A DNA stretch of 51,726 bases from a virus: IMG/VR virus record IMGVR_UViG_3300017731_000006, positions 1-51,726 of that record. One strand, written 5' to 3'. The notes under the pieces are model-generated. The model worked only from the letters and a program-made list of their open reading frames with translations, had not been told where the DNA came from and ran no database searches. A program made the translations under genes and the position numbers. Below, one piece after another: positions 10,714 through 50,982 of the stretch. Positions within the stretch are counted from its first letter, which is position 1, and each line of letters begins with the position of its first letter.

Positions 10714-11028
10714 ATGCAACATATATATTGTACTGAATGTGGAGGTAAGGTCTCATACTCTGGGGCTAAACCTAAATTTTGTTCTTCATGCGGCTCACCT
10801 ATTGGAGGAGTGTCAACTCAGTCGAGCACAAAGACAAAAGTGAACCTGAATAAAAAGACATCGCAATCCAAAGCTTCAGTGCCGTTGAAAGATGATGAAA
10901 CAGACATTGACTATGTTCCAAGCATTGGGAGATTGAGTTATGATTTAGCTCATGAAGGATCAGGCAACAAAACTTACAAATTCGGAGATATTGTCAATGT
11001 CGAACCAGAGCAGAAACCCGGAAAATAA
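10714..11028 (+). CDS. Zinc-ribbon protein with disordered tail, 104 aa
   Basis: Residues 1-31 hold a zinc ribbon with two CxxC knuckles (YCTECGGKV and FCSSCGSPI), each followed by Gly as in the zf-ribbon family. The remainder is Ser/Thr/Lys-rich, probably unfolded, with a final YDLAHEGSG ... YKFGDIV segment. Zinc ribbons of this kind often join transcription or translation complexes. It overlaps the start of the sigma factor gene by 32 nt, so the two are probably co-expressed and this protein could be a cofactor of sigma. No GTGTA motif precedes it; the upstream DNA is an A/T hairpin-like stretch. Confidence 0.7.
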   Translation: MQHIYCTECGGKVSYSGAKPKFCSSCGSPIGGVSTQSSTKTKVNLNKKTSQSKASVPLKDDETDIDYVPSIGRLSYDLAHEGSGNKTYKFGDIVNVEPEQKPGK

Positions 11029-24002: not shown

Positions 24003-24005
24003 TCA

Positions 24006-24770
24006 TCACAAATTACCTGAATCAATATCTGACTCTAGATCCTGGAACTCTTTCTCAGTTGGATTTTGACTGAAGTACCAAAAACTAATGAATGTCATTA
24101 ACTTATCTCTCGATAGATCAAAAATATCATTGCCACCTTCGTCCATTTCATAGTAGGACTCTTCTTTTTCTTCCGCGCTTTGACCTGGAAATAAGGGTAA
24201 AACTTCTCCACCCTCTGCCTGGTAATGAGAGAGATTTAACAGGTACCATAAAATAACTTTATTTTGAGCTTTAGTATCCGCCGTATGATTAAAGACATTC
24301 TGGTATGCGGTCTCAAGATCTACAATCTCTTTCCTGGTAGAAGCAAAAGATTTAGATAGTTCGGCCTCTCTAGATTTTTCTTTTTCGTTTTTTTGCTTTT
24401 TATCTAAAAGACGACCAAGGGAATTATTAATTTCATTTAATTCTTGATAAAGACGAATTAATCGGTTGGAGTCTTCTTCACTTAAGAGTCCCCCACTATC
24501 GCTATATTTCTTAGCTAGCATAGCTTTTGTAAGTATGCCTTTTTTAATGCACTTACTCATTTCAATACTGAATTCCATATCAGCATCCTCTACTTGCCTG
24601 CGAGATGGCTCGTGTATGATAATGTCATACGGAGTATCTTGCTTGACTTTTTTAGTTTTGGTGATTTTTTCCACCTCACCGGTTTCTTTGTTTTTTACTT
24701 GAGAAACCTCTTCCTTTTCAACCTCTTCGCTTTTGGCGATTTTAAATTGATAGATTACTTTTTTATTCAT
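24006..24770 (-). CDS. Putative tail assembly chaperone, leftward, 254 aa
   Basis: The N-terminus is a small beta-type domain (VIYQFKIAKSE) with a charged hairpin; then TPYDIIIHEPSRRQVEDADM and FSIEMSKCIKKGILTKAMLA, a pattern I associate with tail assembly chaperone-like proteins of large phages (PSRRxxEDADxxxS followed by xGILTxAMLxKKY). A long charged helix follows (about 110-150), then a helical C-terminus with LMTFISFWYFSQNPTEKEF. The gene has an AAGGA site before its ATG and no GTGTA motif. It reads against the surrounding head and tail genes, which is unusual for this role. Moderate confidence in the family. Confidence 0.5.
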   Translation of the reverse strand: MNKKVIYQFKIAKSEEVEKEEVSQVKNKETGEVEKITKTKKVKQDTPYDIIIHEPSRRQVEDADMEFSIEMSKCIKKGILTKAMLAKKYSDSGGLLSEEDSNRLIRLYQELNEINNSLGRLLDKKQKNEKEKSREAELSKSFASTRKEIVDLETAYQNVFNHTADTKAQNKVILWYLLNLSHYQAEGGEVLPLFPGQSAEEKEESYYEMDEGGNDIFDLSRDKLMTFISFWYFSQNPTEKEFQDLESDIDSGNL

Positions 24771-36200: not shown

Positions 36201-39200
36201 CCAGGCTGGCGTGGCTGAATTTAAGCAAGCAATTACGACTGGCCTTAAACCCCAAAAGATTGCAGAGATTGGAGATATTTTAGGCAATCAAACGCCGCAA
36301 CAAATTCAGAAAATTAATTCATTTTTTGGAGAGCTCGGTGAAGAAATAAAAGATTTAAGTGATAATCAAGAGATTGTCAATAAGTTAACAGAAAAATATG
36401 GAGCTACTCAAGATGCCACTTTAAGGCAGGCAGTAATTTTATTGATGCACAAGATGAAATTAACAACCATAGAGCAAGAACATATAGAGTTGGTTGCAAA
36501 AAATAATGATATATTAAAAAGATCAAACAAAACAGCAGAAACAAATGCTAAAGTAGCAAGAGCTGGATTAGAAAGCGAAAAGGCTTTAAATTTAATAAAA
36601 CAAAAAACAGTCGAAGGTGCTAGGGAATTAGCTATGATTTCTGCCGAGCAAAAGAACCCCGCAGAATCCATGCTTGAAAACTTACAGGGCGAAGTTGACA
36701 CTCTGGCTGTCATTAATCATTTTAGAAAAGATAGCCTTAAAAAGATCATGGAGAGCGGCGCCCTTGATGACAAAGCCTATGAACAACAAATAGATAAAAA
36801 CCGCACAGATGCAGAGTCTGCTGTATTGTCCCTTAAGCAATTACAAGTTCAAGAAAATATACTTCGGGATACCGATGAATTTAAAATTATTCAAATAGCT
36901 AAGATACAAAGTGAAGTTCTTGGGGCTAGTGCAGCTGCCAAAGATGCAGCATTCAGGAATGAATATTTAAGTTATAACGAAACTAGAGAGTCTTTGGTTC
37001 AGTCGCAAATAAGCGAAGAAACTACTACCCTCGAAACAACCGCAAGAAATAATCTTACTAAATTAAAATTATTAGCAGGATCTGAAGAGTTAAGAAAACA
37101 AGTAGACTTACAGATTCAAGAAGAAATAACTTCAGCTCAATCATCCGCCTTAATTAATAGCGAGAAAGCATTAATATTAAGTGCAATGGGTAAACAAGGA
37201 GAATTACTGCGCCAAGCAAATGAATTGCAAGAATCTTCTAATAAATTAATCGGGTTAGAGAATGCGATAAGAAAAGCTGCGGTAAGCGAGCAAGAGTTAA
37301 GGTTAAGTGTTGGTGCAGATATAGCGACAGAAAGGGCCACTGGAATTAGAGGAACAAGAGAAGCCGGCATGAGGGCAACGATAACTGGTAGCCCAGAAGA
37401 TGCTCTTGCATTTGCTCAGTCCCTCAAAGAAACTAATAAATTATTAGGAGAAGGATCTCGGGCTTTTGATACATTGCGGGTGAAAATTGCAGAGATGGAT
37501 GTAGCCGCCAAAAATCTTGGATCTGATTTAGTTGACATAGGACTAGATCAAACTAGGAGCGGCATGAAGCAACTCTTTAAAGATATTGGAAGCGGTGCAA
37601 AAAGTGCAAAGGAAGCATGGTCTGACTTTGGTTTAGGATTGGCAGATGTTTTGCTTGACCGCATGATGGAGCACAATATCGATCAGATTATTAAAAATTT
37701 AACTTTTGCATTTACTGGAGAGAATGCACTTTCTGAGGCCGAGAAAATAGCTGGATCCAATAATCATTTAATTGATGCGAATACTCAGCTGATCAGCTCG
37801 CTTGATGCACTAAGAATGTCCGTAGAGGACCAAAAAAGAATAGTTGGGGAGCAGGCTGCAAGTAGGGCTGATATTGGAGTGACAAGGGATGGACCTAACC
37901 CCAATGAAGTTCCATTTGCACGGCCAGACCAACAGAGAGGAGAAAAATTAGCGATACAGGCTAAAACTGATCTTGCTAAAGCTAGAGCTAAAGAAATAGA
38001 AGAAGCTAAAGCCGCTCAGTTAGCTGAGGATGCAGCCAGAAATCCTAGAAGACCCAATATATATAAATCTGAAGAATACTCAGATCAAAGCTTAAAGCAA
38101 AAGAGTCATGTCAAACCCGAAGGTATAGTATTTAAAAGCCGAGAAAGACCTTCAGGCGGTACTGTCACAACACAAAGAATTAATGAAGCTCAAGCACAGG
38201 CTATACAGCAAGAAATAGCTAGGCTTGAGGCAATTGATTTAGATCCAAACAAAAGTTTAACAAATGAAACTAGACAACACCTTCAGGATTTAAAGTCAAA
38301 ACTTGCCGAGACTAATACTAATGTACAAAATTTTAATTTCCAATATCGGGAAGCGGTAGAAAACTCTAGACAAATTAATGCAGACCTCAATAGTCTGAAA
38401 ACGTCTATTAGTTTATCTACCAGGAATGGCCAAATTAATATTCCTCAATTTCCAAGTTTTGGCAACCAGTCCAAAAGACCAAGACAGGATTTCTTCGGCG
38501 GCAAAATACAAAAATTTGCAAAAGGTGGATTTGTTGAGGGCGAGCCCGGGGTTGATAAAGTACCAGCCATGCTCACTGCAGGAGAATTTGTTGTACCTAA
38601 AAAGGCAGCAAAGGCATTAAAAGATGGCGGCATATTGCAACACTTTGAGGAGGGTGGTGTTGCTCAAAGAGTGAAGGCCGGAGCGACCGGATTAGCCCAG
38701 GGATTTGCGATGCAAGAAGCAGCGAGATATGTTGCCAAGAAAATGCAAGACAAGGATGCCCACAAAGACAAGCCACCTGAATTTGATATGAACAAGTTTA
38801 AGAATTTGAACTTGGATTCTACACTTTCAATTTCAAGAGGAGACCCTAGATCAAGTGGGAAGCTTCTAGCTAAAGATCCAGTTATGGAAGAGTATCGGGG
38901 GCATTTATTAGATGTAGCTTCATATCGTGCGGCGCAGAAAAATAAAGATGTCAGTAAAAGAATGTCGAAAATTGGATCGATTGTAGGAACCGTGGCAAGT
39001 TTTGCGATTAGTCAATTAACTTCCTTGGCTGCAAAGCCACTTAATGCACTTATAGAAAAGGGTAAAAATGTAGCTCTTGGCCATAGTGGGATAGGTAAGC
39101 ACTCTGAGGCATTTAAGGCCGCAAGAAAAGCAAACCTAAATGTTAATTATTCAGAAGTATCCAAAAGTATTGAATCTGGCAGGGCATTGTCAAACGAGGG

Positions 39201-39993
39201 GTCCTCTTGGATGAGTGTGCCAAATCCAGACGGAACAGAAGGCTGGGAAAAATTATCCGAAACACCTAAGTATCCGCATTACAAGACACCGAAAATTAAT
39301 TATACTGGAATAGATAGGGGTCAGCGAGATATACTTACGGGCAAGCCATTAGAAGTATTTTCGGGTGGAGAAATTCCAGCCATGTTGACTGCAGGAGAAT
39401 CTTTTATACCAGCACCAATTGCGAAGCGCATAGGTTATGACAATTTAAATAAAATGAATCGCACTGGATCAATCCCCATCATTGATGGACCGGGAGGTGT
39501 AGATAATGTGGGTCCAGTTGGACTAAGCGAAGGAGATTTTATCATAAGAAGAAGTTCTACAGATAAGTTACTTCGAGACAACCCAAACATGATGAAGTTT
39601 GCAATGCAAAATCCAGACGGATTTCGCAAGGCAGAAAAAGGATACTATAAGGGCGGCATAGTTGGTACAGCAAGCTCTCCTAGTTCTTCCATTTCTACCC
39701 CACAGACAACATCAGGATCAAAGCCTGCTCCTGTAGTAGAGAATAGGATAAGCTCTCTATTAGAAGGAACACAAGCAAACCAAACAGAAACTGCTGCGAC
39801 AAATCAAAATACAGAAGTAACAAACAATATAAATGTCAATGTAACAATTGACAAATCCGGAAATGAAAAGGTTTCCACCGAAGGGGCACAAGGAACATAC
39901 GAGCAAGAGCAACAACTTGCCATGAAGATAAAGACAAAGGTACTCGAAGTTATTCGAGAGGAGAAGCGAATAGGTGGAGAGCTTAGCGGATGA
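30265..39993 (+). CDS. Tape measure protein with variable modules and GFVPNF repeats, 3242 aa
   Basis: Sets tail length and is ejected into the host cell. N-terminal about 40-330 is the TP901-type tape measure core (FEKTLADINAVLSLSNSQI, AALEFSRQGLSTEEVIKRT, LINALQRAGAVAIDAG, GNSLKTIFTRIQRPEAL). A hydrophobic segment lies near 433-455 and another near 1593-1635. Between 631 and 1448 six GFVPNF-type motifs separate modules; two modules look like PD-(D/E)XK nuclease folds (D780 with E789-V-K791; D1065 with D1085-I-R-S-K1089). A long charged helical part (about 1640-2640) follows. The C-terminus has GGFVEGEPGVDKVPAMLTAG (from 2754) and GGEIPAMLTAGES (from 3034), tape measure hallmarks. At about 0.15 nm per residue the tail would be near 490 nm. 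Confidence 0.88.
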   Translation: MAGIRADIDLSVNTQGVKRSLDRATNEINKVVNKISGKNVGFSVNEKSFTQPLGRINASANEFTKSLEASNARVIAFGASVAILDGISNAFKSLVTEAVAFEKTLADINAVLSLSNSQIRSFGEGLFDAARNTAQGFNIAAEAALEFSRQGLSTEEVIKRTNDALILTRLTSLKAADAVAGLTAAVNAFGDAGLTTTDIIDKLSAVDVNFAVSSEDLINALQRAGAVAIDAGVEFDSLVGIVAALQQTTARGGAVIGNSLKTIFTRIQRPEALNQLEQMGIVVRDLSGAILPADKVLLNMSKTFDSLTQSQQSNVVQFSAGIFQANVFRAALKDLSKENSLHTQATKISADAAGEAARKNELLNKTVSALASQAGTNLQELAATIGQLAIGPQMADALEFVNERIEEIRGALGGGEEEGSTFGKGLVRGIGNVISGPAAIAFGAIFIKLFMNIAKFASNSMKDVLGVVSQKDRIKQMEDSIVDALSRNHNIQQSLNNLEGDRLAQEKFMLGIIEAQTDAMEQQRRIAQSLAGPLVAKGVSPDLGASGGLVPEASRRKERKGAAMGGYGAGPIDSMRVQGVGDVVYNKAETVKQFPGMKQPAIMPPENSRAGSVYQKAFQGKHGFDPYASDGFVPNFATAMGKNLVMDKSKLTLFGGSMDIARATGVNYKEIEKLFASRQPVKMSASLKDIIMSSDGGKQKISGKETLFEAFSALSGAGIDSIERTFNVRPPIPGGKGKGKLSRDQFAERKSLNLLNKEVGGNQLTYDPKTKKGVQNYPVDIIGPGGAHEVKSGKLSAANIISKSLRMASDRELSGWMSANKISGGKGLKGKNLSGAQKLAGKMGIKGSGKGGEFSESDADMWGMSEGFVPNFKKDWNSLYNDLIKKYEAGQIKTPKNIYKDVFGMSGPSFLNYLKEQTRTQTVKGKKYNTRQSGMRKALGDKKFNNAKKIYNEVKDRTGHLSDVRIKGDLFEEVFSMLAGQPFKKGTDALDFSEARGRRIRVPRELRKKIGLQDSIIYGDTESGTGHGAKLMRTKVLRELADQGKLGQILSQSGKVELPGSRFVDIIAEGADARPKKNLTTTLGDIRSKSKPLTKQAIDQSIKSKKELNKKISYDYHVDDIDLNKLTFQDINKYLSKQDADLIKRKTGKFSDIQSKFNNQGFVPNFHYWQKFLKWSKGPNGWGLRGDDFTLTDFANYLQNHTDTKPQEIAKINKQTQGFKARANKDLKGLGGPSMGREGAKHYASKAAIQDRKGTIDLNGIFIKNLKDKVERYNSGRSLGSFSDASSGLVPNFADIVPFDNAVPFKKKTIKSKNLMHQEYLKEFAGGETQFRPGQTMLQFLSKFYDRKTLQDLKKYPEDYRILSGGFVPNFADPLAEAVEREKAAGIPASNIKIEQSNQLKGPGNPMGLAVTNTRDEPAGVGQGIRRAKSMGIDPKSHGAAGGFMPNFVVGGVAGGPAGQKFKDFENQVESTTNSLKDNEEGVDKHTTSNMEGLQRLFYLQSSISMASGFLQEFAETGGETTKTMAELGLGVSNVVSTMIATKEFASQLAEMGGVEKGKEVGLGGLLGKVTRGAGGAGKGKGLGLDKIAKTIGGIAKFGKGLLRLAPAVGQLITGFSVLNEVLKFAGIDIFDLFKDNADKAADKLEKLSESAEKTQSALDEANGLSATKDKISKLEIIGSGRTLKQEKSLMSLRIKEIKQQTSLQSKLSQVDTAHLKNKDLINEINSAKSGEIKGTEVLVRVLEKVAKQEAVQAAFATAIQDFGKKTGDEFGFIDTFGEGDAPSSDLKKQLNVLANTIAAITVGLSPEKKGQIKENLAAGNVRGIDGLESLDLETAEKKQFFINALQRQIEVSEREFEGDKKIQQAKAGGLSEYVKIVANYKKQTEQIAHQNNLDNIISASKRKINSSLIDLQSEYQMISKSTAIQNKTALESAAITEKLESSKLKANNEALNGLETLRKEYMSVSKIASRFNSDAKDAQAGVAEFKQAITTGLKPQKIAEIGDILGNQTPQQIQKINSFFGELGEEIKDLSDNQEIVNKLTEKYGATQDATLRQAVILLMHKMKLTTIEQEHIELVAKNNDILKRSNKTAETNAKVARAGLESEKALNLIKQKTVEGARELAMISAEQKNPAESMLENLQGEVDTLAVINHFRKDSLKKIMESGALDDKAYEQQIDKNRTDAESAVLSLKQLQVQENILRDTDEFKIIQIAKIQSEVLGASAAAKDAAFRNEYLSYNETRESLVQSQISEETTTLETTARNNLTKLKLLAGSEELRKQVDLQIQEEITSAQSSALINSEKALILSAMGKQGELLRQANELQESSNKLIGLENAIRKAAVSEQELRLSVGADIATERATGIRGTREAGMRATITGSPEDALAFAQSLKETNKLLGEGSRAFDTLRVKIAEMDVAAKNLGSDLVDIGLDQTRSGMKQLFKDIGSGAKSAKEAWSDFGLGLADVLLDRMMEHNIDQIIKNLTFAFTGENALSEAEKIAGSNNHLIDANTQLISSLDALRMSVEDQKRIVGEQAASRADIGVTRDGPNPNEVPFARPDQQRGEKLAIQAKTDLAKARAKEIEEAKAAQLAEDAARNPRRPNIYKSEEYSDQSLKQKSHVKPEGIVFKSRERPSGGTVTTQRINEAQAQAIQQEIARLEAIDLDPNKSLTNETRQHLQDLKSKLAETNTNVQNFNFQYREAVENSRQINADLNSLKTSISLSTRNGQINIPQFPSFGNQSKRPRQDFFGGKIQKFAKGGFVEGEPGVDKVPAMLTAGEFVVPKKAAKALKDGGILQHFEEGGVAQRVKAGATGLAQGFAMQEAARYVAKKMQDKDAHKDKPPEFDMNKFKNLNLDSTLSISRGDPRSSGKLLAKDPVMEEYRGHLLDVASYRAAQKNKDVSKRMSKIGSIVGTVASFAISQLTSLAAKPLNALIEKGKNVALGHSGIGKHSEAFKAARKANLNVNYSEVSKSIESGRALSNEGSSWMSVPNPDGTEGWEKLSETPKYPHYKTPKINYTGIDRGQRDILTGKPLEVFSGGEIPAMLTAGESFIPAPIAKRIGYDNLNKMNRTGSIPIIDGPGGVDNVGPVGLSEGDFIIRRSSTDKLLRDNPNMMKFAMQNPDGFRKAEKGYYKGGIVGTASSPSSSISTPQTTSGSKPAPVVENRISSLLEGTQANQTETAATNQNTEVTNNINVNVTIDKSGNEKVSTEGAQGTYEQEQQLAMKIKTKVLEVIREEKRIGGELSG
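32155..34608 (+). repeat. Six GFVPNF motifs in the tape measure gene
   Basis: Residue positions: GFVPNF 631-636, GFVPNF 867-872, GFVPNF 1161-1166, GLVPNF 1288-1293, GFVPNF 1366-1371, GFMPNF 1443-1448; a degenerate GLVPEA occurs at 548-553. Codons differ between copies (for example GGATTCGTGCCTAATTTC and GGCTTTGTGCCAAACTTT), so the peptide and not the DNA is conserved. The spans between copies are 230, 288, 121, 72 and 71 residues and are unrelated to each other by eye. Confidence 0.85.
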
Positions 39994-41912
39994 AGCAAGC
40001 ATTCTTAGCTCACGAGCAGAAATTTTTTATTAATGGAACTCAAATGTCTGGTATCCAGAGCGTTGAGGGTTCGTACTCTATACAAGAAAAACCAATTAAT
40101 GTATTAGGCTGGGGGCTAGTTGGAGAAGATTATTATCCACCAGAGCCTAAAATAGAAATTGAAAATAAACCAGAAGATAGTTGCTACGGCTTCGTGATTC
40201 AAGAGCATGGGCTTTTTGATTTATTACAAGAAGATGTTCTTAGTTGCCCCGAAGACAGACCGAGGAGGTGCCCTGATCCCAAATCGATGGCGGTATTGAA
40301 TGCGCCACTAGAAGGAAATTTCTCAATAAATTCAACGCTAGTAAGTGAAGATTTTTTTATACAATTTTTGGGTGACACTCCATTTACTGGAAGTTTGCAT
40401 CATGGCCATGAGTATTTTGGGTTCCATAGTGGTTATATTACTAGTCATACAGTATCATGTGCCATAGGTCAGGTTCCGTCAACATCGACAAGTATAAGAG
40501 TGTTTGGGGACATAGGTGGTTCGCCAAATTTCGTTGACAAGGAAAACGATCAATTTTCCGTGCTGGATGAAAATGGATTTGCTTATATACTGGAAGATTC
40601 ATATTATAATAAACCAGAGTATAATGCTAAGGGCGACAATCCTTTCCCAGAGATAAGAGTTCCCGACCAAGGATCGATAAGCATAAAATGTGCAGGCTCA
40701 GAGACAGATAGAGTTGTGGCATTTAACCATTCAATTAATGTAGGCATAGAGCCAATATATGTTGTTGGGTCAGCATATGCTGCTCAGGTCGATGTTAATT
40801 GGCCAATTATTACAGATACTTCGTTTACCCTTGAGATAGATGAATACAAATATCAAAGTCTTAGGAAGTATATGTTCACACCCACTGTAGAAGATATCGC
40901 TATAAAGATTAATGATTGCTTTGGGGATCCAATTCAACATTATACTATCGAGCAAGCTAGGCTTATTCGGGAATCTGTTTCATCTTCTGTAGATGGAAGA
41001 TTAACTGTAAATCTTCAGTATAAATCTTATTATAATAAAAGGGGAAAACTACCCCACTCTAAAGATTTTACAAATAGCAATTTTACCGAAGCAATGTGGA
41101 GCCCTTCGTTTTTGAGACCAACCTTATGGAATGATGCTTTAGATAAAAACTATCTAAATTTAGATGGATATGCTGTAAAGGGATGGAGGAGTAAGGGACC
41201 TAATGATGCCGTATTGGAATCTTCAAGCGGGGGTTTTGATCCAAGGTTTACTCAATATATATTTAATAAAAAACCTGCTATTAATTTTTACGGCAAAAGT
41301 ATTTTAACCACTAGAGATATTAATATAAACAGGGGGGAGCCTTATTATGTCTTTATAGCTGGTCAGTTTAAGGATATGAATAAGCGGGCTGTTTTGGTGG
41401 ATACACTGGGCGTTGATTTTCATCAAGAATTTGATAGGCTCCTGATAGAGAGGTTAGACACAAACAATATAAAGGTATCTACTCAAACTAGAAGGCCGGA
41501 TGGAGTATTAGAAGAAACTGGCTCAATAAAAAGCAAAGGAGATGACATTGTTGACGGAGGAATAAAAGAAAGCTATCAGAGTGCTTCGTCTAGTGCAGAC
41601 ACTATTAGGGTAGAGGAATTTATAATAACAGTTTTAATTGATGGAGATAATTCATATTTAGATATAAATGGAAGATCTGCAATAGTCGAAGGCTCTTTAG
41701 GCCTCAATAAAGTAGAAGCTTTTTCCATCGGTTCAGTTATGAATGAAATGGAATCTACTATCAATGGATTCATAGCAGAGAATGTGGTTGTTAGTGGCTT
41801 TATTCCTGATAGTGAAATATTCAGAACTCAAGGGTATTTAGCTCACAAATGGGGGTTTGTAGATTTATTACCAGAAGACCACACCTATAAAGAAAAACGT
41901 CCAGTAGTATAA
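39990..41912 (+). CDS. Tail protein with tube-like N-terminus and lectin-like C-terminus, 640 aa
   Basis: Residues 1-355 resemble the tube paralogues (KFFINGTQMSGIQSVEGSYS, FGFHSGYITSHTVSCAIGQV, IEQARLIRESVSSSVDGRL), so a distal tail or tail-tip ring built on a tube fold is likely. Residues about 380-640 look like a LamG/concanavalin-type lectin domain: INFYGKSILTTRDININRGE, then the hallmark ending with YLAHKWGFVDLLPEDHTYK (A618-H-K-W621), which I know from many environmental phage and bacterial surface proteins. It overlaps the tape measure gene by 4 nt, the normal place for a distal tail protein that binds the tape measure end. Confidence 0.65.
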   Translation: MKQAFLAHEQKFFINGTQMSGIQSVEGSYSIQEKPINVLGWGLVGEDYYPPEPKIEIENKPEDSCYGFVIQEHGLFDLLQEDVLSCPEDRPRRCPDPKSMAVLNAPLEGNFSINSTLVSEDFFIQFLGDTPFTGSLHHGHEYFGFHSGYITSHTVSCAIGQVPSTSTSIRVFGDIGGSPNFVDKENDQFSVLDENGFAYILEDSYYNKPEYNAKGDNPFPEIRVPDQGSISIKCAGSETDRVVAFNHSINVGIEPIYVVGSAYAAQVDVNWPIITDTSFTLEIDEYKYQSLRKYMFTPTVEDIAIKINDCFGDPIQHYTIEQARLIRESVSSSVDGRLTVNLQYKSYYNKRGKLPHSKDFTNSNFTEAMWSPSFLRPTLWNDALDKNYLNLDGYAVKGWRSKGPNDAVLESSSGGFDPRFTQYIFNKKPAINFYGKSILTTRDININRGEPYYVFIAGQFKDMNKRAVLVDTLGVDFHQEFDRLLIERLDTNNIKVSTQTRRPDGVLEETGSIKSKGDDIVDGGIKESYQSASSSADTIRVEEFIITVLIDGDNSYLDINGRSAIVEGSLGLNKVEAFSIGSVMNEMESTINGFIAENVVVSGFIPDSEIFRTQGYLAHKWGFVDLLPEDHTYKEKRPVV

Positions 41913-41914
41913 TT

Positions 41915-43114
41915 ATGGGAAAACCTTTTTACAGATATGAAGATGTGCCCGTACTATTGGCTGAAGAAGGGCAAGAGCCCATTATGGTTCTAGCTACAGA
42001 TGCTTCGATATCGGCAAACCAACCGCTAGAAGCAAAGAAATTTCTAGAAGATTACAATATATCCTTTGCCCTTCAAAATCAGGATATCACATTTCAAGGA
42101 GAAGAAGAGACTGAGTTTTTATTGGGCCCAACCTCTGGCCCGGGCATAAAGGTGCCTGAATCAATAGAGATTATAAAAAGCGGACAGAAAATATCTTACC
42201 CAGGAGGCCAGTCCCTATACTTATCCAAGGATCTTTACCCGGGAGATTATCATATCAATGTTAAGTCCACAGGGGATACGGTACTTGATTTGCATAGGGA
42301 TGTTCCGTATGGCGAAGTCGATGTAATTAGGAATTATTCGGCCAAGGGGGAGATTAGAGGTAGGTTAAGTATTAGCTATTACATGAACACCGGTAACCTT
42401 CATTCCTTTGCTGATCTAACAGGCCTCGCAGACCCAAACATATATCCACAAGTAAACGAGAAAAGAATAACTGGGTCAATAGGGGATTATAAATTTTATC
42501 ATGCATACTTAAAAGAACTATCATTTAATGCTCAACCATTCAATGTAATTGAAGCTAATATTGATTTAGACGTTTATGGAAAAATGGAGTATAATGAAGG
42601 GTGGTCTGAATATGTATTAGAAGATATGCCCTGTGTGAGAAAAAGACAGTATACCGTGCCCCATGCTATGAACACAAAAGTTTATGGAGCCAATGGTATT
42701 GGCATCGAATATCCCTTGAGTTTTAGTTATAATATTAGTGCAAATAGATATCCAGAACTCAATGTACCTATTAGTGGGTTCATAGATGATGACGGAGAGC
42801 TACCAACCCGTGTGACTAAAAACGAAATAGACATAACGATATCCATAGAAGGAGAGAAGTTGGATCCATTTCTCAAAATTACTGGTCAGCGAGCTGACAT
42901 TACCATCCTTCTTTCAGATATTGGTTTCGAGGAAGAATTTACGGACAACAATTACGGTAAGTTAAGTGAATTTAAATTAGCAGGAAACCTAGTACTACCA
43001 GATGTCGTTCCCGCAGAATTAGAGCAGTACGGCGTAAAAGATGAAGATGCACTATCTGTTTCGGAAGGAGGGTTCCTTCGAGGAAGAGCCACAGTAAGAC
43101 AATCTTATAGATAA
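41915..43114 (+). CDS. Tail protein, tube-fold-like, 399 aa
   Basis: A 399-residue beta-rich protein. It opens with FYRYEDVPVLLAEEGQEPIM and SISANQPLEAKKFLEDYNIS, has a middle part with YKFYHAYLKELSFNAQPFNV, and ends with KLSEFKLAGNLVLPDVVP and GRATVRQSYR. The overall order of strands, with a closing amphipathic strand, is like that of the tube paralogues, but identity by eye is low. It follows the lectin-type tail gene by 2 nt and is followed immediately (no gap) by the 1371-aa gene, so the operon is tight. Probable distal tail ring or hub. Confidence 0.55.
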   Translation: MGKPFYRYEDVPVLLAEEGQEPIMVLATDASISANQPLEAKKFLEDYNISFALQNQDITFQGEEETEFLLGPTSGPGIKVPESIEIIKSGQKISYPGGQSLYLSKDLYPGDYHINVKSTGDTVLDLHRDVPYGEVDVIRNYSAKGEIRGRLSISYYMNTGNLHSFADLTGLADPNIYPQVNEKRITGSIGDYKFYHAYLKELSFNAQPFNVIEANIDLDVYGKMEYNEGWSEYVLEDMPCVRKRQYTVPHAMNTKVYGANGIGIEYPLSFSYNISANRYPELNVPISGFIDDDGELPTRVTKNEIDITISIEGEKLDPFLKITGQRADITILLSDIGFEEEFTDNNYGKLSEFKLAGNLVLPDVVPAELEQYGVKDEDALSVSEGGFLRGRATVRQSYR

Positions 43115-46100
43115 ATGGATATTTCTGCACAAAGCTGGAAGCGTGGGGTTAGTTACTCGAAAGATAATATCGTAAAGGTAGATAACCTAGCGAATATAGA
43201 TGATTTCATTTCATCTCAAGGAGGTTCTATTAATACTAATGAGATTATATCAATAGATATAGAGGCAACAGAAAAAGAGCAATCTTATGGTGGTTATTTT
43301 CCAGTCAACCCTAGTTGGGATTACTCAACAAAGGCAATGGTCAAAAAAATCACGAAAGACTCTGAGCTAATAGATAATTATAAAACATTTTTGACAGAAA
43401 CTAATGGAGCTATTGACCCGGTAAATTCAATAGGTGTTGGGGTGGCTATACAATTCTATGATGAAAATTTTAATAAATTAAATCCTACTGACAAAAGAAA
43501 TACTTATAGGCTTTTAGCCCAAGCCGAATTAAGTCATGATGAATATTATACTGCATATTTAGATATTAAATCTAAAGATATACCTCAAGGAGCAAGGTTA
43601 GGTCAAGTATTCGTATTTATATATGGATTGAAGTCTGGTGGATTTGAGTTTGATAGAATTAGCGCGACAAGTACAAGCCCGTTTTTTTATTGCACCCAAG
43701 ATCATGATTCATCAATTGAAAACCATCCCGGGTCAGAATTGTGGCACGATACTGGATACTGGACTCAGGACTTTGAGTGGAGACCTTCTTATGGGTCAAA
43801 AAGTAATTTTGTAGCAACTAACGAAAACCTTAATCTTGGGGAAGGCTCTGATTATGTAAATAATTTGGCTATAAATTCTTTGCCCCTAGAAATAGATGTA
43901 AATTTCAATAATAGAACAGATAAGGAGGCTAAGGCAATCATGCATTTCTTACAAGAGAAGCATTTTGCTTATGAGTCTATATTTGGAATAGATTACAGGG
44001 GCGACCGATTGTTATCTGGAGATGTATCTTCTTTTAGGTTCGTTTATACTCATCCGTATAGAAAAGATTTACATTTTACTTGTACCGATTTTTCTCACTC
44101 AATATTATATAGAAATAATAATGTTGTAACTGCTAAATTTGTATGCAATACAGAAAGCTCTTTAAGGAGCGTTGATAGCCATGCTGGGTATAATTATAGG
44201 CTTGACGTGCTGGTACCTGTATTTATTGATGGAGAAACAAAATTTACAAAAGGGGAACAAGTAAAATTAAATACATTCTCGCTGGAGTCTGGAAATGAAG
44301 AGGATCCAACTGAGACACTAGATGGGGTTTCAGATATAGTAAAAGTATCAGAGACAGAGGCCCAGATAATCTTTAATCAGGATCAGGCTATCGAGCTGGG
44401 GGATTGTGTTTATATAGAAATCCCAGAAGAAGATTCTATTTTTTCAGTCGGATTAACCAAGATAGTCCATAAAATAGATGATAGAAATTATATATTTGGG
44501 CCAATATTAGAATCTGGATCTGAAGCATCACCCCAGACAGTTAATATTAAACATCTAGAGAGATGTCCGGAAGATTGTTTGACCAGTAAGGTCTTGTTTC
44601 CTCCTGGGTTAGACATTATACCGCCAGAAACTCTTGATCCTGTTACTGGAGTGCCCAAGAAAAGAGTGGTAATGTTAAAAAATTATCGAAAGATTCAGAT
44701 TGATTCGGAACTAACAAAGGACTCCAAGGAAATTATAGTTACTCCACTTTCTGATTTTACTTTAAATGCTACAGATGATTTTTATATACTAGTTCCAGCG
44801 GTAAGAGGCAGGCACAGTATATACTTGGAAGATCCAGACAGAATACCAAAGTTTCCGTGGCTGGAGGTCAGGTCGTTTGAACAAAAGCCAAGCTTATCAT
44901 TTGAGCTTAGCAATTCGCCAGATAAAGTGCAATCCGATTTCCAGAAGTATTACAATAAGAAATACAAAAAACAGATTAATCAAAATTTATCAAAATTTAC
45001 TGTTGTATTTGACCAGAGAGATGATGAAGAAGCATTAGAAATATTGCAATTTCTTGAAACTCATTTAGGTTATAAGAAGTTTAGGTTCTCCATGCCCAGG
45101 CCTTATCTAACAGATGAATCTCATGAGACTACATTATCAAAACCAGGAATGTCAATATTCTTTTGCCCAAGTTGGGATCACCAGGTATCTTATAAAAATA
45201 ATCATAAAATAACTGCAACTTTTATAGAATCTGCGACATCAAAAGAAGAAGATCTTTTCTCGGTTTTTGGAATTGGGCAGAACGAGAGCAGGCCGTGTTA
45301 TTCGGCATATTTAGAGGATCCAATTACCCCTCATCAATTATGTACGTTTTCTTCTGTATTGCAAGCCGCAACATGCGGCGGTTTTAGTAGGCTTCAGGGA
45401 GGGGAAGTCGGAGTGCAGTTAAAAAGAAAAGCTATTGATATTATATTCATTGTGGACACTACGGGTAGTATGACCCATTACAACATTAGTGGGTCTGGAC
45501 CTTCTGGTAATTTTTCATTTACAAAATTTAGGGCCGCCATTGATACTATACGTAAAATGATAGTCGCGCATGATGATTATGTAATGCCGGGGACTTTAGG
45601 TTATGCTGGACAATTAAACACCCCAACGATAGAATTCGTTAATATATCGGGGGATGACAACTTGCCTCCTTGGGCGGTTGATAAGAATGGAGAATCATTG
45701 ATAGACGCGGCAGTAGAAGATATTAATAAAGATTTAAAATTAAAAGGTTTTAATATTGATAATTTTGAAAGATTTAAAATAAAAATAGATAAACAAAGAG
45801 TTAATATAGGATTAATACTTTTTGAAGCTGGAACACAGCTTGACGTATCAACTGGACAACAATCGTTTGATAAACAATATATTTACGATAGGCTTTCTGG
45901 GTTGACGGGAGACTATCGAAGAAACGAGGGGGAATATTATACAAAAGCGATTGCTAGGGCATTAGCTCAAATGTATAATAGTCCTAGAGCTGAATACATT
46001 ACAGATAGAATGATTATCACATTAAGTGATGGCCTGATATACAACATGCAGGGAGAAAATAACGATGCAGCTGGAACTGCCCCTGCTATATTTAGCCCTA

Positions 46101-47230
46101 CAGCAATAAACATATGCAAGGCATTAAGGTATGATAGGGAGCTAGCTAAACGTAGGCCCCGGGATGAAGTCTTGGCTAAATTTGGTCATAGTGGAAACAC
46201 CATAAAAAAGTTTTTAGACAGCTATAAAAATCAGGAATCTAATGCAGGCAAATCTTTTTACAATAACCCGGATAATGGGGTGGATAATCCAGATTGGTAT
46301 GAAGAAAGGTTGAATACTATATTTATGTCTGTAGGGATAGGGATACCTGGGAAACTGTCGACCAAATTAAAAGATTATGTTTACGACTTTGAAGATGAAA
46401 CCAAGGGTAGTGAGTTTTATTTTGAAATAAGTAACTCAAGCAATCAAGGTGGGGAAGTGAAGAGGCTTCTTGATTTAATTAAAGCTGTAGAATTAATAAG
46501 CGAAGGATCTGGTTATGAAAATTATTTCTCGGTGACCGTGCATAATTGCGGACCAAGAGATGTTGAAATAAAAAATACATTAATTAATATTGAATCAGAA
46601 GCTGACCCACTAAAGTGGACAACCGAAAGACTAAAAGGAGGGATACCTAAAAGTGGAAGTTTTCAACAATTAGAATACTTGCAGTCTAATGAAACAGAAG
46701 GAAACTCATTAAATGGAAATGGTGGCCAATATTATGGTGACCCTAATAATAAAAAAGCACTGACAGATGAAACTACAGCGGACTCTAATATTCTATGGAA
46801 ATCATTTAATACTAAATACGAAGTATATCGAGACTGCGGCTTGGTTTTAATTGATGGGGGCTGGAAAAATAAACCATCTGATGGAGTAAATAATGTAGGT
46901 GTAGCCTCAAAAGGAATGCCAGTAAGAGTTTTTAGTAGCAGTACAGATCTTCAGATAGTTGACTACAACATAAGTAATGTAACCGAGGAAAATAACCTTC
47001 AGGGGGATTACTCTCACTTGCCAAAATTAAAACCTGGGGAATCTTTGGATTTATTTTTCGGCATAAGAATCAACAGGCTTGCTAATATAAATGAAAATAT
47101 ACAATTAGTATTCAATACAGACGATGGAAGTATTAAAAAATCTGATTGCTATGCAGAGATACAATTTCCTATAAAATTGAATGATGTAACCGAACCTGAG
47201 CCTATAGAGGTGATAGAGGAGCCGCAGTAA
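43115..47230 (+). CDS. Large tail-tip protein with duplicated minor-tail domain and VWA domain, 1371 aa
   Basis: Two similar tail domains (about 240-350 and 590-710) are recognised by KEAKAIMHFLQEKHFAYESI ... LYRNNNVVTAKFVCN in the first and DEEALEILQFLETHLGYKKF ... SYKNNHKITATFIES in the second, as in phage minor tail M-type or DUF2460-like proteins. A von Willebrand A domain follows from about 775: MIDAS motif D781-T-T-G-S785, later VNIGLILFEAG, then MIITLSDGL as the third MIDAS loop. A C-terminal Ig-like part (about 1090-1371) ends the protein. VWA domains bind proteins through a metal. As part of a tail tip this might contact the host surface or trigger ejection. No gap before the gene. 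Confidence 0.7.
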   Translation: MDISAQSWKRGVSYSKDNIVKVDNLANIDDFISSQGGSINTNEIISIDIEATEKEQSYGGYFPVNPSWDYSTKAMVKKITKDSELIDNYKTFLTETNGAIDPVNSIGVGVAIQFYDENFNKLNPTDKRNTYRLLAQAELSHDEYYTAYLDIKSKDIPQGARLGQVFVFIYGLKSGGFEFDRISATSTSPFFYCTQDHDSSIENHPGSELWHDTGYWTQDFEWRPSYGSKSNFVATNENLNLGEGSDYVNNLAINSLPLEIDVNFNNRTDKEAKAIMHFLQEKHFAYESIFGIDYRGDRLLSGDVSSFRFVYTHPYRKDLHFTCTDFSHSILYRNNNVVTAKFVCNTESSLRSVDSHAGYNYRLDVLVPVFIDGETKFTKGEQVKLNTFSLESGNEEDPTETLDGVSDIVKVSETEAQIIFNQDQAIELGDCVYIEIPEEDSIFSVGLTKIVHKIDDRNYIFGPILESGSEASPQTVNIKHLERCPEDCLTSKVLFPPGLDIIPPETLDPVTGVPKKRVVMLKNYRKIQIDSELTKDSKEIIVTPLSDFTLNATDDFYILVPAVRGRHSIYLEDPDRIPKFPWLEVRSFEQKPSLSFELSNSPDKVQSDFQKYYNKKYKKQINQNLSKFTVVFDQRDDEEALEILQFLETHLGYKKFRFSMPRPYLTDESHETTLSKPGMSIFFCPSWDHQVSYKNNHKITATFIESATSKEEDLFSVFGIGQNESRPCYSAYLEDPITPHQLCTFSSVLQAATCGGFSRLQGGEVGVQLKRKAIDIIFIVDTTGSMTHYNISGSGPSGNFSFTKFRAAIDTIRKMIVAHDDYVMPGTLGYAGQLNTPTIEFVNISGDDNLPPWAVDKNGESLIDAAVEDINKDLKLKGFNIDNFERFKIKIDKQRVNIGLILFEAGTQLDVSTGQQSFDKQYIYDRLSGLTGDYRRNEGEYYTKAIARALAQMYNSPRAEYITDRMIITLSDGLIYNMQGENNDAAGTAPAIFSPTAINICKALRYDRELAKRRPRDEVLAKFGHSGNTIKKFLDSYKNQESNAGKSFYNNPDNGVDNPDWYEERLNTIFMSVGIGIPGKLSTKLKDYVYDFEDETKGSEFYFEISNSSNQGGEVKRLLDLIKAVELISEGSGYENYFSVTVHNCGPRDVEIKNTLINIESEADPLKWTTERLKGGIPKSGSFQQLEYLQSNETEGNSLNGNGGQYYGDPNNKKALTDETTADSNILWKSFNTKYEVYRDCGLVLIDGGWKNKPSDGVNNVGVASKGMPVRVFSSSTDLQIVDYNISNVTEENNLQGDYSHLPKLKPGESLDLFFGIRINRLANINENIQLVFNTDDGSIKKSDCYAEIQFPIKLNDVTEPEPIEVIEEPQ

Positions 47231-47235
47231 CTAAA

Positions 47236-48393
47236 ATGCCTTTTATAACACAAAATTCTGGAATTTGCCTGTCTGAGGAGGGTGTTAGTAATTTTTCTGC
47301 ATGCGGACCAATTGTTAGGGAAAGCGATGCGTCATATGTTTTTACAGAAAAGGAATTAAAAATTTATACTGACAATAGTTGCTCTGATTCAACCACTAAA
47401 TTTGACTGTAATTTTAAAAGAACAATCGTTGACTCGGGAAGATTTGTGAAGATAACAAATACTTGTACTCTTCCAATAGAGATAACCGGATTTGTGAATA
47501 GTGACCCTGTTAGGTTCTCTTTGTTTGAATATCCTAAATACAGAAATCAAGGCTCTATGTATACGGTAGATAACACAGAACAGTTACCAATCACATTAAA
47601 CCCGACCGACTCTTTTAAGATTCCTACATTTTTTCACCCATTAATTAGCGAGCTAGAAACTGGAAACGCTGGAATAATTCAGGATGTCCATGATCAAGAG
47701 TTGCCTATTGATGTTTTTGGGGCAAGGGTGGATATATATCCAGGATTCCCTATATCAAATTGCTCTACGGACGAAAATGACTGCGATGCATACTTCACAC
47801 TAACAGGGAGCTTTCTTTGCGAAGATCCTGGGGAGCGAGAGTGGATGGAAAATCAAGATAATTTTATACCTGCAGACTTAAGCGAGTTTGATCCAGACAT
47901 TGAAAACGATGTTTGCATAAATAAAACACCATCACTAGAATTTACTACAGACGGATGGGTAGACGACTTAGATTTCATGCAAAAATTAGATGAATCTATA
48001 TTGTCATATTCTGAAGAAATAACTAACGGAGGTAAAGATATTGCTGAATTATATAAACATATAGGAATGTCTGGAGCTCTTGGCGGCATGCGGAGGATGA
48101 TACAGGGTAAAAATAATGTAAACGAATTAATAAATGGATCTCTGTCAGACGAAGAAGTTGTATATACTTATGATAATAAAAGTTATTCCATGACGGTAAA
48201 TTATGATAGCCAGAAAAATTCAATCATGAATATTGATGGGCTTGATTTCACTGGATTATTTTATGATATCGTTGGCGGTCAAGATGCAAGAAGCCAAACT
48301 GTATTCATAAATAGCAGGCAAGAAACAATTATATCTTTATTTGTTGCAGACGAGGGAGACTATGATGCTGTAGATTTTTGCGAGGAAGAATAA
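47236..48393 (+). CDS. Cysteine-rich tail protein, 385 aa
   Basis: A 385-residue protein with about 15 cysteines, many paired close in the N-terminal half (SCSDSTTKFDCNF, NCSTDENDCDAYF). The first half looks like a stack of Ig-like or ASH-type beta domains (RFVKITNTCTLPIEITGFVN, ITLNPTDSFKIPTFFHP), the second is acidic then helical (LDFMQKLDESILSYSEEI, ELYKHIGMSGALGGMRRMI), with a final acidic VDFCEEE. It follows the VWA gene by 5 nt and directly abuts the next gene. The many Cys suggest disulfides or metal in an extracellular tail-tip part. No family certain. Confidence 0.6.
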   Translation: MPFITQNSGICLSEEGVSNFSACGPIVRESDASYVFTEKELKIYTDNSCSDSTTKFDCNFKRTIVDSGRFVKITNTCTLPIEITGFVNSDPVRFSLFEYPKYRNQGSMYTVDNTEQLPITLNPTDSFKIPTFFHPLISELETGNAGIIQDVHDQELPIDVFGARVDIYPGFPISNCSTDENDCDAYFTLTGSFLCEDPGEREWMENQDNFIPADLSEFDPDIENDVCINKTPSLEFTTDGWVDDLDFMQKLDESILSYSEEITNGGKDIAELYKHIGMSGALGGMRRMIQGKNNVNELINGSLSDEEVVYTYDNKSYSMTVNYDSQKNSIMNIDGLDFTGLFYDIVGGQDARSQTVFINSRQETIISLFVADEGDYDAVDFCEEE

Positions 48394-50982
48394 ATGAATT
48401 TCAAAAATATAGATATCTCTTTAAGTAATAATCAAAACGATTATTTATCTTTTAGTGTGGCTATGGATGCTGCTACTAGCTCTGAAATTAATTTATTTAA
48501 TATTGGTGGTACTGGTATACTTCAGTATACAACAAAGTCTGATTATGTTTTTGAGTTAAGTAGACACAGAGCTTTTACAAATGAAGTGAAGCAATTAAGT
48601 GCAACAGAGCCGGATATGATTGGGTACCCTGATGGGCTTGCATGGGTGCCTGGTCAACATGTATCAATGTTATCTGAGGAAGATACTGTAACAAATAAGT
48701 TGCCAATCACTCAAGACGTTACACTTCTAAGCGAAGATGAATATCATAAAGGAGAGTTCTTGATACTTGATGACTATTATAATATATCTTGGCCGACAGA
48801 AGGAGATTGGTTTCCTGTAGAATTAACAAGCATAGAAGATTCCAATAAGAGCTCTCCCCACTTAGAAATTAAAACAAATCAACAAGGATCAATTGGAAGA
48901 AAGTCTTATGCAGTAAGATATTTAAAGGATAAATTTTTACTGTCAGATTCTTATGCGAATTCTCTGCTTGCGTCAGCAGAAGAATTAATGGCACTCGAGA
49001 TATTCTCTCCAAAGCTTGAGGGGTCTTTATTTAAGTTTAGTTTGAAGAGAAACTCTCTCGAAGAAGATTTACTGGGAGCGGGAAGTATAAGGCTAGGTAA
49101 AAAACCGGAGCTAGTTTACGGGAGGCTAACGGATAAGCACACCACACTGACTGAGTGGAACTCTATATTTGATGTTAATGGATCTGCGAATGCTGACTCA
49201 ATATTCAGAGATGGATCAAATAGAGACGAAGTATTCTATCAGCACCTAGAAGAATATATAAATAAAAATTGGCACGGTAAATTAAAAAGAAATTTATGGG
49301 GAGATGCGATAGAGGATGAATCAGTAGAACTAACAATAAGAGATCCTAAAATATTAAAAGATAATATATTATATTGTTTTTATTATTTTGGAGCATCAGA
49401 TGATGTTAAAAATTTAGGATTATTTGCTTATAAGGATTTCTCTGTAACCTCATTAGATACTGTTATAAATTGGCATGTAGGGCTGGGCGCAAAAAGTAGG
49501 TACTCTAGCGAACATAGGAGCCTATCGACAGAACTCGCATATTTGCCAGCAATAAAAAAGCAGCAACAAATCAGTAGGGTTGTTGGGCTATCGCCAAGAT
49601 CATCGTATGCATATGATGTTGAGTATAATAAGATCGAGGGAAGCAATAGAAATAAGGGTTATGAATATAGTATTACTTTTGTAGACACTCCTGGTGGGTC
49701 TGAGGCATCATATCCAGAGCCTTTATACAGGGAGGGACAAGAAGTGATACTGTTAGTATACCCGCAAAATAATTTTTTCCTGGAATCCATTAGTGCAGTT
49801 GACTCGCAGGGTAATCCAGTCGAGATTATTGATAATAGAATTATTATGCCCGACAGCGATGTAATTGTGACGGCAATATATGCAGAGGTTAGTAATAACT
49901 TGGTTAATTTTATAGGTGGATGGACTTACGACCAATCAACTACAACACAGCAAATGTGGCAAAACGGCAATCTTTTAGTTGAGGAAACCGATAGAAATAA
50001 AAATATAACTATTGAAACTGATGCTTATATGCAGTTAGCAAAAGTTGCATTTAATCAATCAGCTGTAATTGGTGAGGTAATTGTAATTGATGAAAATATA
50101 GATGAAGAAACCAGGCAGAAGATAGAGGGACATCTGGCTCACAAGTGGTCAATGCAGCAATTCCTTCCAGAATCTCATCCCTATAAGGAATCCAATGTTT
50201 TAGGGTGGGGTCCATCAGATGTGGGACAATCATTGGTTGGGTGGTACAATGAGACCTCAATAGTTGAGTCTAATGGAGAGGTAGTTGAATGGACTGATAA
50301 AACGCCATCTAGTGCGAACTTTTATGTGCCAGCTGGAGTAGATAATCCCGCTTACTCGCAGCTTCATGGTTTGCCGGCGGTCAAGTTTGACGGACTCGAG
50401 AATTCAGAAAATGATTACATGCGAACCAATCAAGGAGATTCTCCGTTCTTGGCTGGAGGCACTGTTCAGCGAAACTTAACAGGTTTAGCATGCTTTGTGG
50501 TATATAAATATTTACCCGACTTGGATGGTTTCGCTCCATGTGGTAGAGCTTCTATTTGGGGGCATAGAAACATGTGGCTTAATGTTCATGCTCCATGGAG
50601 TAATGGATTTGGGTATTGGGATATAGACGCTAATCCAAATCAATCAAGAATTGGAGCCCCATGGATGACTTGCGCATTTAATATATCTTTCGTCGCAACA
50701 GAGCAAGATATATTATCAACAGAGCCAAATAATCCTTCGGGTGAGGTTGTGATAGCATATGGATTGGATACGTCGAATATTTATATTTATTATGAGGGTG
50801 TATGGTATATTTATGAAAACACTAATGGTCCTTTTAATATTAACTTTCAAGCAACTGAAGCGGAAATATTAGCAACGGAACCAAGTAACCCCTCAGGAGA
50901 GGCCACAGTAGCATATGGAACTGATACGGGTAATTTATATATATATTATGATGAGGTTTGGTATATTGTTAATAATGACTGA
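48394..50982 (+). CDS. Multidomain tail fibre-like protein with InlB-type and lectin-type parts, 862 aa
   Basis: Order of parts: a beta-rich N-terminus (1-420) with two charged helical stretches; an InlB-type repeat (about 423-505: YEYSITFVDTPGG, YREGQEVILLVYP, IIMPDSDVIVTAIYAEV); the second half of a LamG-type domain ending in HLAHKWSMQQFLPESHPYK (H583-K584-W585); then the first half of another LamG-type domain (about 605-760: SLVGWYNETSIVESNGEVVE, LPAVKFDG) that lacks its own ending; finally two 52-residue repeats (762-813, 814-862). This order (C-half then N-half) suggests domain shuffling. Likely a receptor-binding appendage. Starts immediately after the previous stop. Confidence 0.65.
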   Translation: MNFKNIDISLSNNQNDYLSFSVAMDAATSSEINLFNIGGTGILQYTTKSDYVFELSRHRAFTNEVKQLSATEPDMIGYPDGLAWVPGQHVSMLSEEDTVTNKLPITQDVTLLSEDEYHKGEFLILDDYYNISWPTEGDWFPVELTSIEDSNKSSPHLEIKTNQQGSIGRKSYAVRYLKDKFLLSDSYANSLLASAEELMALEIFSPKLEGSLFKFSLKRNSLEEDLLGAGSIRLGKKPELVYGRLTDKHTTLTEWNSIFDVNGSANADSIFRDGSNRDEVFYQHLEEYINKNWHGKLKRNLWGDAIEDESVELTIRDPKILKDNILYCFYYFGASDDVKNLGLFAYKDFSVTSLDTVINWHVGLGAKSRYSSEHRSLSTELAYLPAIKKQQQISRVVGLSPRSSYAYDVEYNKIEGSNRNKGYEYSITFVDTPGGSEASYPEPLYREGQEVILLVYPQNNFFLESISAVDSQGNPVEIIDNRIIMPDSDVIVTAIYAEVSNNLVNFIGGWTYDQSTTTQQMWQNGNLLVEETDRNKNITIETDAYMQLAKVAFNQSAVIGEVIVIDENIDEETRQKIEGHLAHKWSMQQFLPESHPYKESNVLGWGPSDVGQSLVGWYNETSIVESNGEVVEWTDKTPSSANFYVPAGVDNPAYSQLHGLPAVKFDGLENSENDYMRTNQGDSPFLAGGTVQRNLTGLACFVVYKYLPDLDGFAPCGRASIWGHRNMWLNVHAPWSNGFGYWDIDANPNQSRIGAPWMTCAFNISFVATEQDILSTEPNNPSGEVVIAYGLDTSNIYIYYEGVWYIYENTNGPFNINFQATEAEILATEPSNPSGEATVAYGTDTGNLYIYYDEVWYIVNND
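50677..50982 (+). repeat. Tandem 52-residue repeat at a fibre C-terminus
   Basis: Unit 1 at 50677-50832, unit 2 at 50833-50982 (156-nt period). Peptide pattern FNIxFxATExxILxTEP then NPSGExxxAYGxDTxNxYIYY and a final VWYI. The nucleotides have diverged, but most amino acids match. Related modules occur in the genes at 6819 and 51008. Confidence 0.8.

Follow-up and report, generated by a model that had tools for sequence, protein, structure and literature searches.

The subject of this work is one gene in a stretch of viral DNA, hereafter the window, which corresponds to a complete viral record of 51,726 bases (IMG/VR record IMGVR_UViG_3300017731_000006). The gene encodes a protein of 1371 residues, apparently a tail-tip component, in which two domains of the kind found in the lambda tail tip protein M (gpM) are followed by a domain with a predicted VWA fold, and we consider here what that VWA domain might do at the end of a phage tail. 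An earlier note on this DNA, made from its letters alone, had drawn attention to the combination, and the open reading frame lies exactly where that note placed it (43115-47230, plus strand), with the motif DTTGS at residues 781-785. The gene, its parts and its neighbours are the following:

30265-39993, plus strand: tape-measure gene, 3242 residues, with a match to PF10145.
39990-43114, plus strand: genes of 640 and 399 residues, between the tape measure and the 1371-residue gene.
43115-47230, plus strand: gene of the 1371-residue tail-tip protein, with two gpM-like domains, a VWA domain and a C-terminal beta domain.
43178-43675, plus strand: residues 22-187, beta-sandwich like carbohydrate-binding modules (CBM16 and CBM4) and the central fibre of phage Douge, by VIA-align.
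43865-44200, plus strand: residues about 251-362, first gpM-like minor-tail domain, by hhalign to the second copy.
44876-45229, plus strand: residues 588-705, second gpM-like minor-tail domain, PF05939 (Phage_min_tail), by Pfam, phrog_14 and the family profile.
45422-46513, plus strand: residues about 770-1133, VWA fold, by AlphaFold2 model, Foldseek and VIA-align.
45455-45469, plus strand: residues 781-785, DTTGS, loop 1 of the metal site.
45566-45799, plus strand: residues 818-895, a 78-residue stretch linking the first helix to the next core strand, from the secondary structure of the model and the module alignment (A5, below).
45752-46114, plus strand: residues about 880-1000, loops 2 and 3 of the metal-ion-dependent adhesion site (MIDAS) face with the intervening strands and helix, hypervariable and, in relatives, an exchanged cassette.
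45932-45934, plus strand: Glu940, at the canonical MIDAS Thr position, by ungapped register to the loop-3 Asp.
46028-46030, plus strand: Asp972, the loop-3 Asp, D in 30 of 30 family rows.
46523-47185, plus strand: residues 1137-1357, C-terminal beta domain, separate from the VWA in the AlphaFold2 model.
47236-50982, plus strand: genes of 385 and 862 residues, downstream of the 1371-residue gene.

We assign the 1371-residue protein to the tail tip because a PF10145 tape measure lies upstream, PF05939 lies within the chain and the family profile matches lambda gpM. The PF05939 match reaches 42.7 bits against a curated cut-off of 39 (E value 8e-11), the PHROGs match of the protein is phrog_14, a minor tail protein, and the profile of the N-terminal family (16 rows) matches lambda tail tip protein M (8iyk_M) at an E value of 0.0019. 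When the two halves of the protein were aligned to each other, hhalign gave a probability of 98.5%, against 0.1-0.6% in four control comparisons of other parts, which bears out both of the minor-tail domains that had been described ahead of the VWA. Residues 22-187 match the central fibre of mycobacteriophage Douge (8zdp) with a VIA-align Z score of 10.1 over 133 residues at 3.1 Å, and CBM16 with Z scores of 8.2-8.5; the structure model of the whole N-terminal part is of middling quality (predicted local distance difference test, pLDDT, 65.8; predicted template modelling score, pTM, 0.43). As for the neighbourhood, phrog_10356, a virion structural protein, is matched by both the 640-residue (39990-41912) and the 862-residue (48394-50982) genes on either side, and these two seem, by sequence, to have a domain in common within the tail-tip cluster. 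Tail length follows the tape measure at about 1.5 Å per residue, a rule by which the 3242 residues encoded at 30265-39993 would give a tail nearing half a micrometre. General Pfam and PHROGs scans found no AAA protein among the genes at 39990-50982, no search having been aimed at a MoxR-type ATPase neighbour, and PF04984, taken as a sign of a contractile tail, was unmatched in seven of seven related records, which are possibly fragments, the window itself not having been searched for it.

The VWA module, residues 743-1357 of the window protein, was aligned with 23 relatives, and this alignment of 24 rows (A5) served as input to AlphaFold2. Omitted from A5 are repeat copies of contigs already represented (L009, L024, L028, L029, L032, L033, L039), sequences identical to L011 (L012, L013, L016, L035), those 99.9% identical to L020 and L019 (L021 and L026, respectively), and the near-copies L025 (of L017, later used as a pair) and L008 (of L004). 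The resulting model (pLDDT 79.8, pTM 0.83) shows the alternating beta-alpha arrangement of a VWA fold over residues 770-1133, so the structure prediction that the earlier note had proposed as a check came out as that note expected. Its top VIA-align match is Plasmodium TRAP (4hqo_B; Z 15.4, 188 residues, 2.7 Å), followed by factor B and BatB (15.1 each) and the integrin alpha-2 I domain (14.9); among the 50 matches listed, TRAP, the integrin alpha-1 and alpha-2 I domains, ANTXR and BatB give Z scores of 13.9-15.4 over 164-196 residues, and all the matches listed are, going by their titles or general knowledge, presumably VWA or I-domain proteins. Pfam alone stays below its cut-off of 23.8 bits, with 19.3 bits for VWA on the whole protein and 21.9 bits for PF00092 on the module, and PF00092 matches five of the 24 A5 rows at an E value of 0.01 or less. 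We therefore speak of a VWA-like fold rather than of a PF00092 member by score, and regard DTTGS as more than a chance motif because the fold is predicted around it and aligns to known VWA and I domains. A profile search of PDB sequences with the VWA module gave no match at an E value of 1 or less, and a viral fold library gave no clear tail-protein VWA among the 50 matches listed, of which the best were giant-virus proteins; absence from viral tails does not follow from this. The 78-residue stretch after the first helix is longer than in typical VWA domains. Between the window and its closest relative, L002, the most conserved part of the module lies from residue 1134 on, where 20 of 224 sites differ.

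The earlier note had called the domain metal-binding, which is at most putative here: D781, T783, S785 and D972 of the canonical MIDAS set are in place, but the loop-2 Thr is Glu940, and the site is not canonical. The register of Glu940 comes from a distant relative, L074, with which the 32-residue ungapped stretch up to D972 aligns and which has the Thr of a canonical GGGT at the same place, its loop 1 reading DRSGS. Across 30 family rows the MIDAS Thr position is E in 16, K in 11, and R, S and T in one each, and the first Asp of loop 1 is kept in 27 of the 29 rows that extend over that site; near-copies occur among the rows, so these counts are of sequences and not of evolutionary events. 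The same note had held that its proposal would be refuted if the MIDAS residues were not conserved in relatives, which is so in part, as the family divides here. All 13 Glu-type rows of A5 have D781, T783, G784, S785, M786, E940, D972 and a further G invariant, with the residues between them varying widely, and the metal site may accordingly matter in the subgroup to which the window belongs, as far as sequence conservation can tell. The other 11 A5 rows are Lys-type, of which ten keep the first Asp and seven the last Ser of loop 1. In the family as a whole the metal site is not essential, because Lys can stand at the Thr position, the last Ser of DxSxS is missing in the Lys-type rows L027, L030, L031 and L037, and the VWA of L064 is without the first MIDAS Asp.

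In close Glu-type pairs, change within the gene is concentrated on the MIDAS face. L002 (L002:6001-11586, compared with window:43115-47230) is 86% identical over the shared parts, and has about 190 extra residues on the N-terminal side and a long C-terminal extension, both of them missing from the window protein. In 40-residue bins, the lowest nucleotide identity in the gene falls at window residues 921-1000 in window/L002 (where the N-terminal bin also holds a 190-column gap), L011/L014, L018/L019 and L017/L025. We counted differing sites in the MIDAS-face loops against the rest of the VWA, including indels and excluding the metal-site residues, and set the result against 363 circular shifts of the loop mask. 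Seven close pairs were covered, four Glu-type and three Lys-type; further pairs among L011-L020 were left out for their shared rows and L010/L022 for its 99.7% identity. All four Glu-type pairs have an excess in the loops: 41/75 sites against 72/284 in window/L002, 18/67 against 13/284 in L011/L014, 20/69 against 20/284 in L018/L019, and 8/67 against 6/284 in L017/L025, each reached by only one or two of the 363 shifts. The five metal-site positions are identical within all seven pairs. A diversity-generating retroelement is not favoured as the source of this variation: over residues 880-1000, the differences in four of five pairs cover all six substitution classes and fall most often at third codon positions, while L018/L020 alone would fit adenine-directed change (six changes, five involving adenine and five at first or second positions), and RVT_1 (PF00078) was unmatched in all nine records searched, the window among them and some possibly fragments, a template repeat not having been sought.

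The variable face has also moved between phages. L014 and L018 are identical at 333 of 348 nucleotides (96%) over window residues 880-999, a cassette spanning loops 2 and 3, and at 72% over the rest of the gene. A larger switch separates L018 from L064. In bins of 40 residues, the two agree at 98-100% of residues as far as L018 residue 880, a little short of the VWA module, whose start at window residue 743 is L018 residue 889, and they agree at 97-100% of nucleotides per bin over the 3 kb upstream; from the module to the end of the protein, amino-acid identity drops to 18-65% per bin, and the divergence continues to about +7.4 kb, after which, from +7.5 kb, nucleotide identity is again 97-100% to the end of the compared sequence. 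A tree built from the N-terminal part has the E and K types scattered over it, with seven changes for E, at least four of them forced by well-supported branches, and K-type rows are clustered (2 of 500 shuffles). Given the L018/L064 switch and the scattered types, the type of VWA seems to travel from phage to phage without being tied to the ring domains. The VWA is, in short, both variable in sequence and exchanged between close relatives, as a receptor-binding module would be.

As to distribution, scans of viral contigs with the VWA profile and the N-terminal profile gave 38 distinct contigs, each counted once, and the VWA was detected in 36 of them, 31 by the VWA search and five by hmmsearch on plus-strand open reading frames (the L074 match being partial); since the VWA itself was what brought in 31 of these contigs, this is not an unbiased rate. 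Hmmsearch of the plus-strand open reading frames found no VWA in L075, whose contig starts inside the gene, or in L076. Four contigs (L033, L034, L038 and L039) carry the VWA as a separate gene directly after the gpM-like gene. With tblastn, the window protein had no match in 50,697 named phage records, from which records very near the window were possibly excluded, and its relatives L034, L005 and L074 had none among the same records. Against genome contigs the VWA profile had no match and the N-terminal profile a single one, to a 6.8-kb contig placed in the bin of a Flavobacteriaceae metagenome-assembled genome, which is weak evidence for a host because small viral contigs can be mis-binned.

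Taking these observations together, we lean, with somewhat better than even confidence, towards the VWA being a specificity module that is exposed on the tail tip, recombines, and would contact a host- or strain-specific ligand. Adhesion is the best-supported reading because variation and exchange centred on the MIDAS face fit a contact that sets specificity. The earlier suggestion that the domain holds a host partner has gained in this respect, indirectly, from MIDAS-face loops that change faster than any other part of the VWA in close Glu-type relatives and from cassette and block exchange. On this reading the protein would be a structural part of the tail tip of a long-tailed phage, its two gpM-like domains lying in the ring that ends the tail tube. 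As a trimer, it could bring six gpM-like domains into one pseudo-hexameric ring of 3-fold symmetry displaying three VWA domains, whose MIDAS-type faces, to judge from their variability and exchange, might point outward and touch a ligand that differs between hosts or strains. In the subgroup of the window, a divalent cation could be held by D781, T783, S785, E940 and D972, a set that resembles the Glu-containing site of integrin beta I domains; we consider the chances of a cation-dependent contact, in that subgroup only, to be about evenly balanced. In other branches, with Lys at the Thr/Glu position or with a broken site, the same fold might bind without that metal. The full proposal, an integrin-beta-like metal-dependent adhesion domain present three times per tip and serving host recognition, with specificity switched by cassette or block exchange and the metal replaced by lysine in some lineages, is tentative, and taken whole we would not expect it to hold.

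A number of observations weigh against a specificity module in the VWA. The three Lys-type pairs have no clear excess in the loops: 8/57 sites against 24/267 in L031/L037 (reached by 49 of 363 shifts), 18/55 against 64/245 in L034/L038 (67 of 363) and 0/56 against 8/249 in L005/L006 (336 of 363). Although based on general VWA topology, the loop mask was defined with the first pair already in view, and the Glu-type pairs are partly dependent, the cassette being common to L014 and L018. Synonymous change is also raised in the same loops in several pairs, so that imported DNA, and not point-by-point selection, explains much of the loop change. The L018/L064 exchange is not specific to the VWA, because the downstream genes to about +7.4 kb were replaced with it; on the tree, E-type rows cluster no more than chance would give (88 of 500 shuffles score as low), and the placement of several long-branched rows is unsure. 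None of the 50 Foldseek matches listed for the whole model has a template modelling score above 0.39, which is expected where one domain of a longer model matches. Above all, the strongest variation at the locus lies in a distal region starting at +8.4 to +10.5 kb, depending on the pair, and replaced in the near-identical pairs L010/L022, L018/L020, L017/L025 and L004/L008. The C-terminal extension, missing from the window protein, is a further hot spot in some pairs. Since the extension and the distal region vary most, the main receptor-binding part may be elsewhere; on sequence grounds the distal region is a strong candidate for the main receptor-binding protein, better than the VWA, which is probably not the sole host-binding part. 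Counted from the gene start, the distal region runs from about +8.4 to +12 kb in the L004, L010, L017 and L018 loci and by synteny would fall at or beyond the window end; part of the tape-measure region is another hot spot. Against the loops merely tracking these other parts is the finding that the VWA is kept, at 97-100% nucleotide identity, in L010/L022, L018/L020 and L004/L008, while the distal region is replaced in all three and the extension in L010/L022. In L017/L025 the VWA and the distal region both differ.

The rival that survives best, which we nonetheless judge unlikely, is that the partner of the VWA is a second virion protein, such as a neighbouring tail protein or side fibre, with which its loops co-vary. 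The block in which the VWA and the downstream genes moved together between L018 and L064 could be read in this way, and so could the four contigs in which the VWA is a separate gene, as a docking subunit might be, and the Lys-type sites, which lack the canonical metal set in a fold whose sequence family is retained. A co-varying partner should have travelled with the L014/L018 cassette, but the other stretches of high identity in that pair (about +4.5 to +4.9 and +8.5 to +9.1 kb) reach at least the same level in L011/L018, a pair without the full shared cassette, leaving no partner region specific to L014/L018 in the compared sequence. Besides, the VWA is kept in L010/L022, where the extension and the distal region both change, and in L004/L008, where only the distal region does. 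Less probable again, and in our view improbable, is a degenerate structural scaffold binding no ligand, its loop variation being tolerated drift and recombination. The MIDAS broken in L027, L030, L031, L037 and L064, the raised synonymous change in the loops and the lack of a clear loop excess in Lys-type pairs would all suit it, but drift would be expected to strike D781, T783, G784, S785, M786, E940 and D972 as well, yet all 13 Glu-type rows have these residues invariant in hypervariable surroundings. Finally, the ejection latch that the earlier note had also offered, pictured here as an I-domain-like helix shift that receptor contact would cause and that would be relayed to the gpM ring to release the DNA, is very improbable: it draws on the analogy that I domains alter shape upon ligand binding and on the joining of VWA and ring domains in one chain, a mechanical link that is loosened where the VWA is a separate gene (four contigs), and L076 has a ring-type gene with no VWA detected in the plus-strand open reading frames of the stretch examined.

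Should the VWA indeed be a specificity module, a binding fold familiar mainly from the adhesion of animal cells and the invasion of hosts by parasites would be extended to phages. The domain could then serve as a marker of specificity exchange in uncultured phages and would carry a concrete prediction of metal dependence. The site itself might also repay study, since its T, E, K and broken forms, all borne on one scaffold, would make a natural series on the loss and rebuilding of a metal adhesion site.

Elsewhere in the window, a 498-residue protein at 3932-5428 matches RCC1-type ('regulator of chromosome condensation') PHROGs, and a 271-residue protein at 10952-11767 has a weak match to sigma-70 region 2 (E value 8e-5, slightly under the cut-off) and is a possible phage sigma factor. 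Two minus-strand open reading frames (328 and 254 residues) lie at 23016-24770 inside the plus-strand structural cluster, with no Pfam match at an E value of 0.001.

Among known systems, lambda gpM is the closest counterpart of the ring domains: the domain family is the same (PF05939), the position is likewise downstream of the tape measure and the profile matches a tail-tip protein. Unlike gpM, the window protein has two copies of the domain per chain, with CBM-like and VWA additions. In the available part of the lambda report, six gpM form a 3-fold ring that anchors the tip to the tail tube (PMC10721106). The VWA domain resembles VWA and integrin I domains in its fold, its DxS/TxS loop and its loop-3 Asp, and differs from them in the Glu at the MIDAS Thr position, the 78-residue stretch, the setting in a phage tail protein and a Pfam VWA score below the cut-off. 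With integrin beta I domains the likeness may extend to that Glu, as Glu220 of integrin beta-3 presumably stands where alpha-I domains have the MIDAS Thr. The Glu-to-Asp spacing is 31 residues in beta-3 and 32 in the window protein. According to the portion of the beta-3 study available, simulations have Glu220 helping to retain the MIDAS ion, and in the closed state Asp251 serves as a MIDAS ligand (PMC3792891). Neither pairwise nor profile alignment gave Glu220 a reliable place against Glu940, the register of which rests on the family member L074; plain sequence alignment thus does not fix the register between the two proteins, and there is no sign of common descent beyond the fold.

Binding parts at siphophage tail tips are mostly fibres, Ig (immunoglobulin)-like domains and carbohydrate-binding domains, and Ig-like domains are among those named in the available part of the lambda report (PMC10721106). 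VWA proteins of tailed viruses are known, in the accessible portions of the reports, as MoxR-VWA chaperone pairs, CobT-like proteins and a VWA protein of Vi01-like phages (PMC10892097, PMC7911831, PMC7824862, PMC8651126). The last of these, gp185, has a count of 1 in what appears to be a proteomics table and is filed there under DNA/RNA processes, which may mean that phage preparations have already yielded a VWA protein. Those described in these sources are assembly chaperones, cobaltochelatase-like or uncharacterised, and none is described there as fused to a tail-ring protein. Within the literature searched, which in part was available as excerpts and did not take in subscription papers, we found no VWA described as an adhesion part of a tail tip, and a VWA fused to a tail-ring protein and bearing a diversifying metal face would to that extent be new. 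An exchangeable binding module at the tail tip is already known as a kind, and it is the VWA fold that is unusual there.

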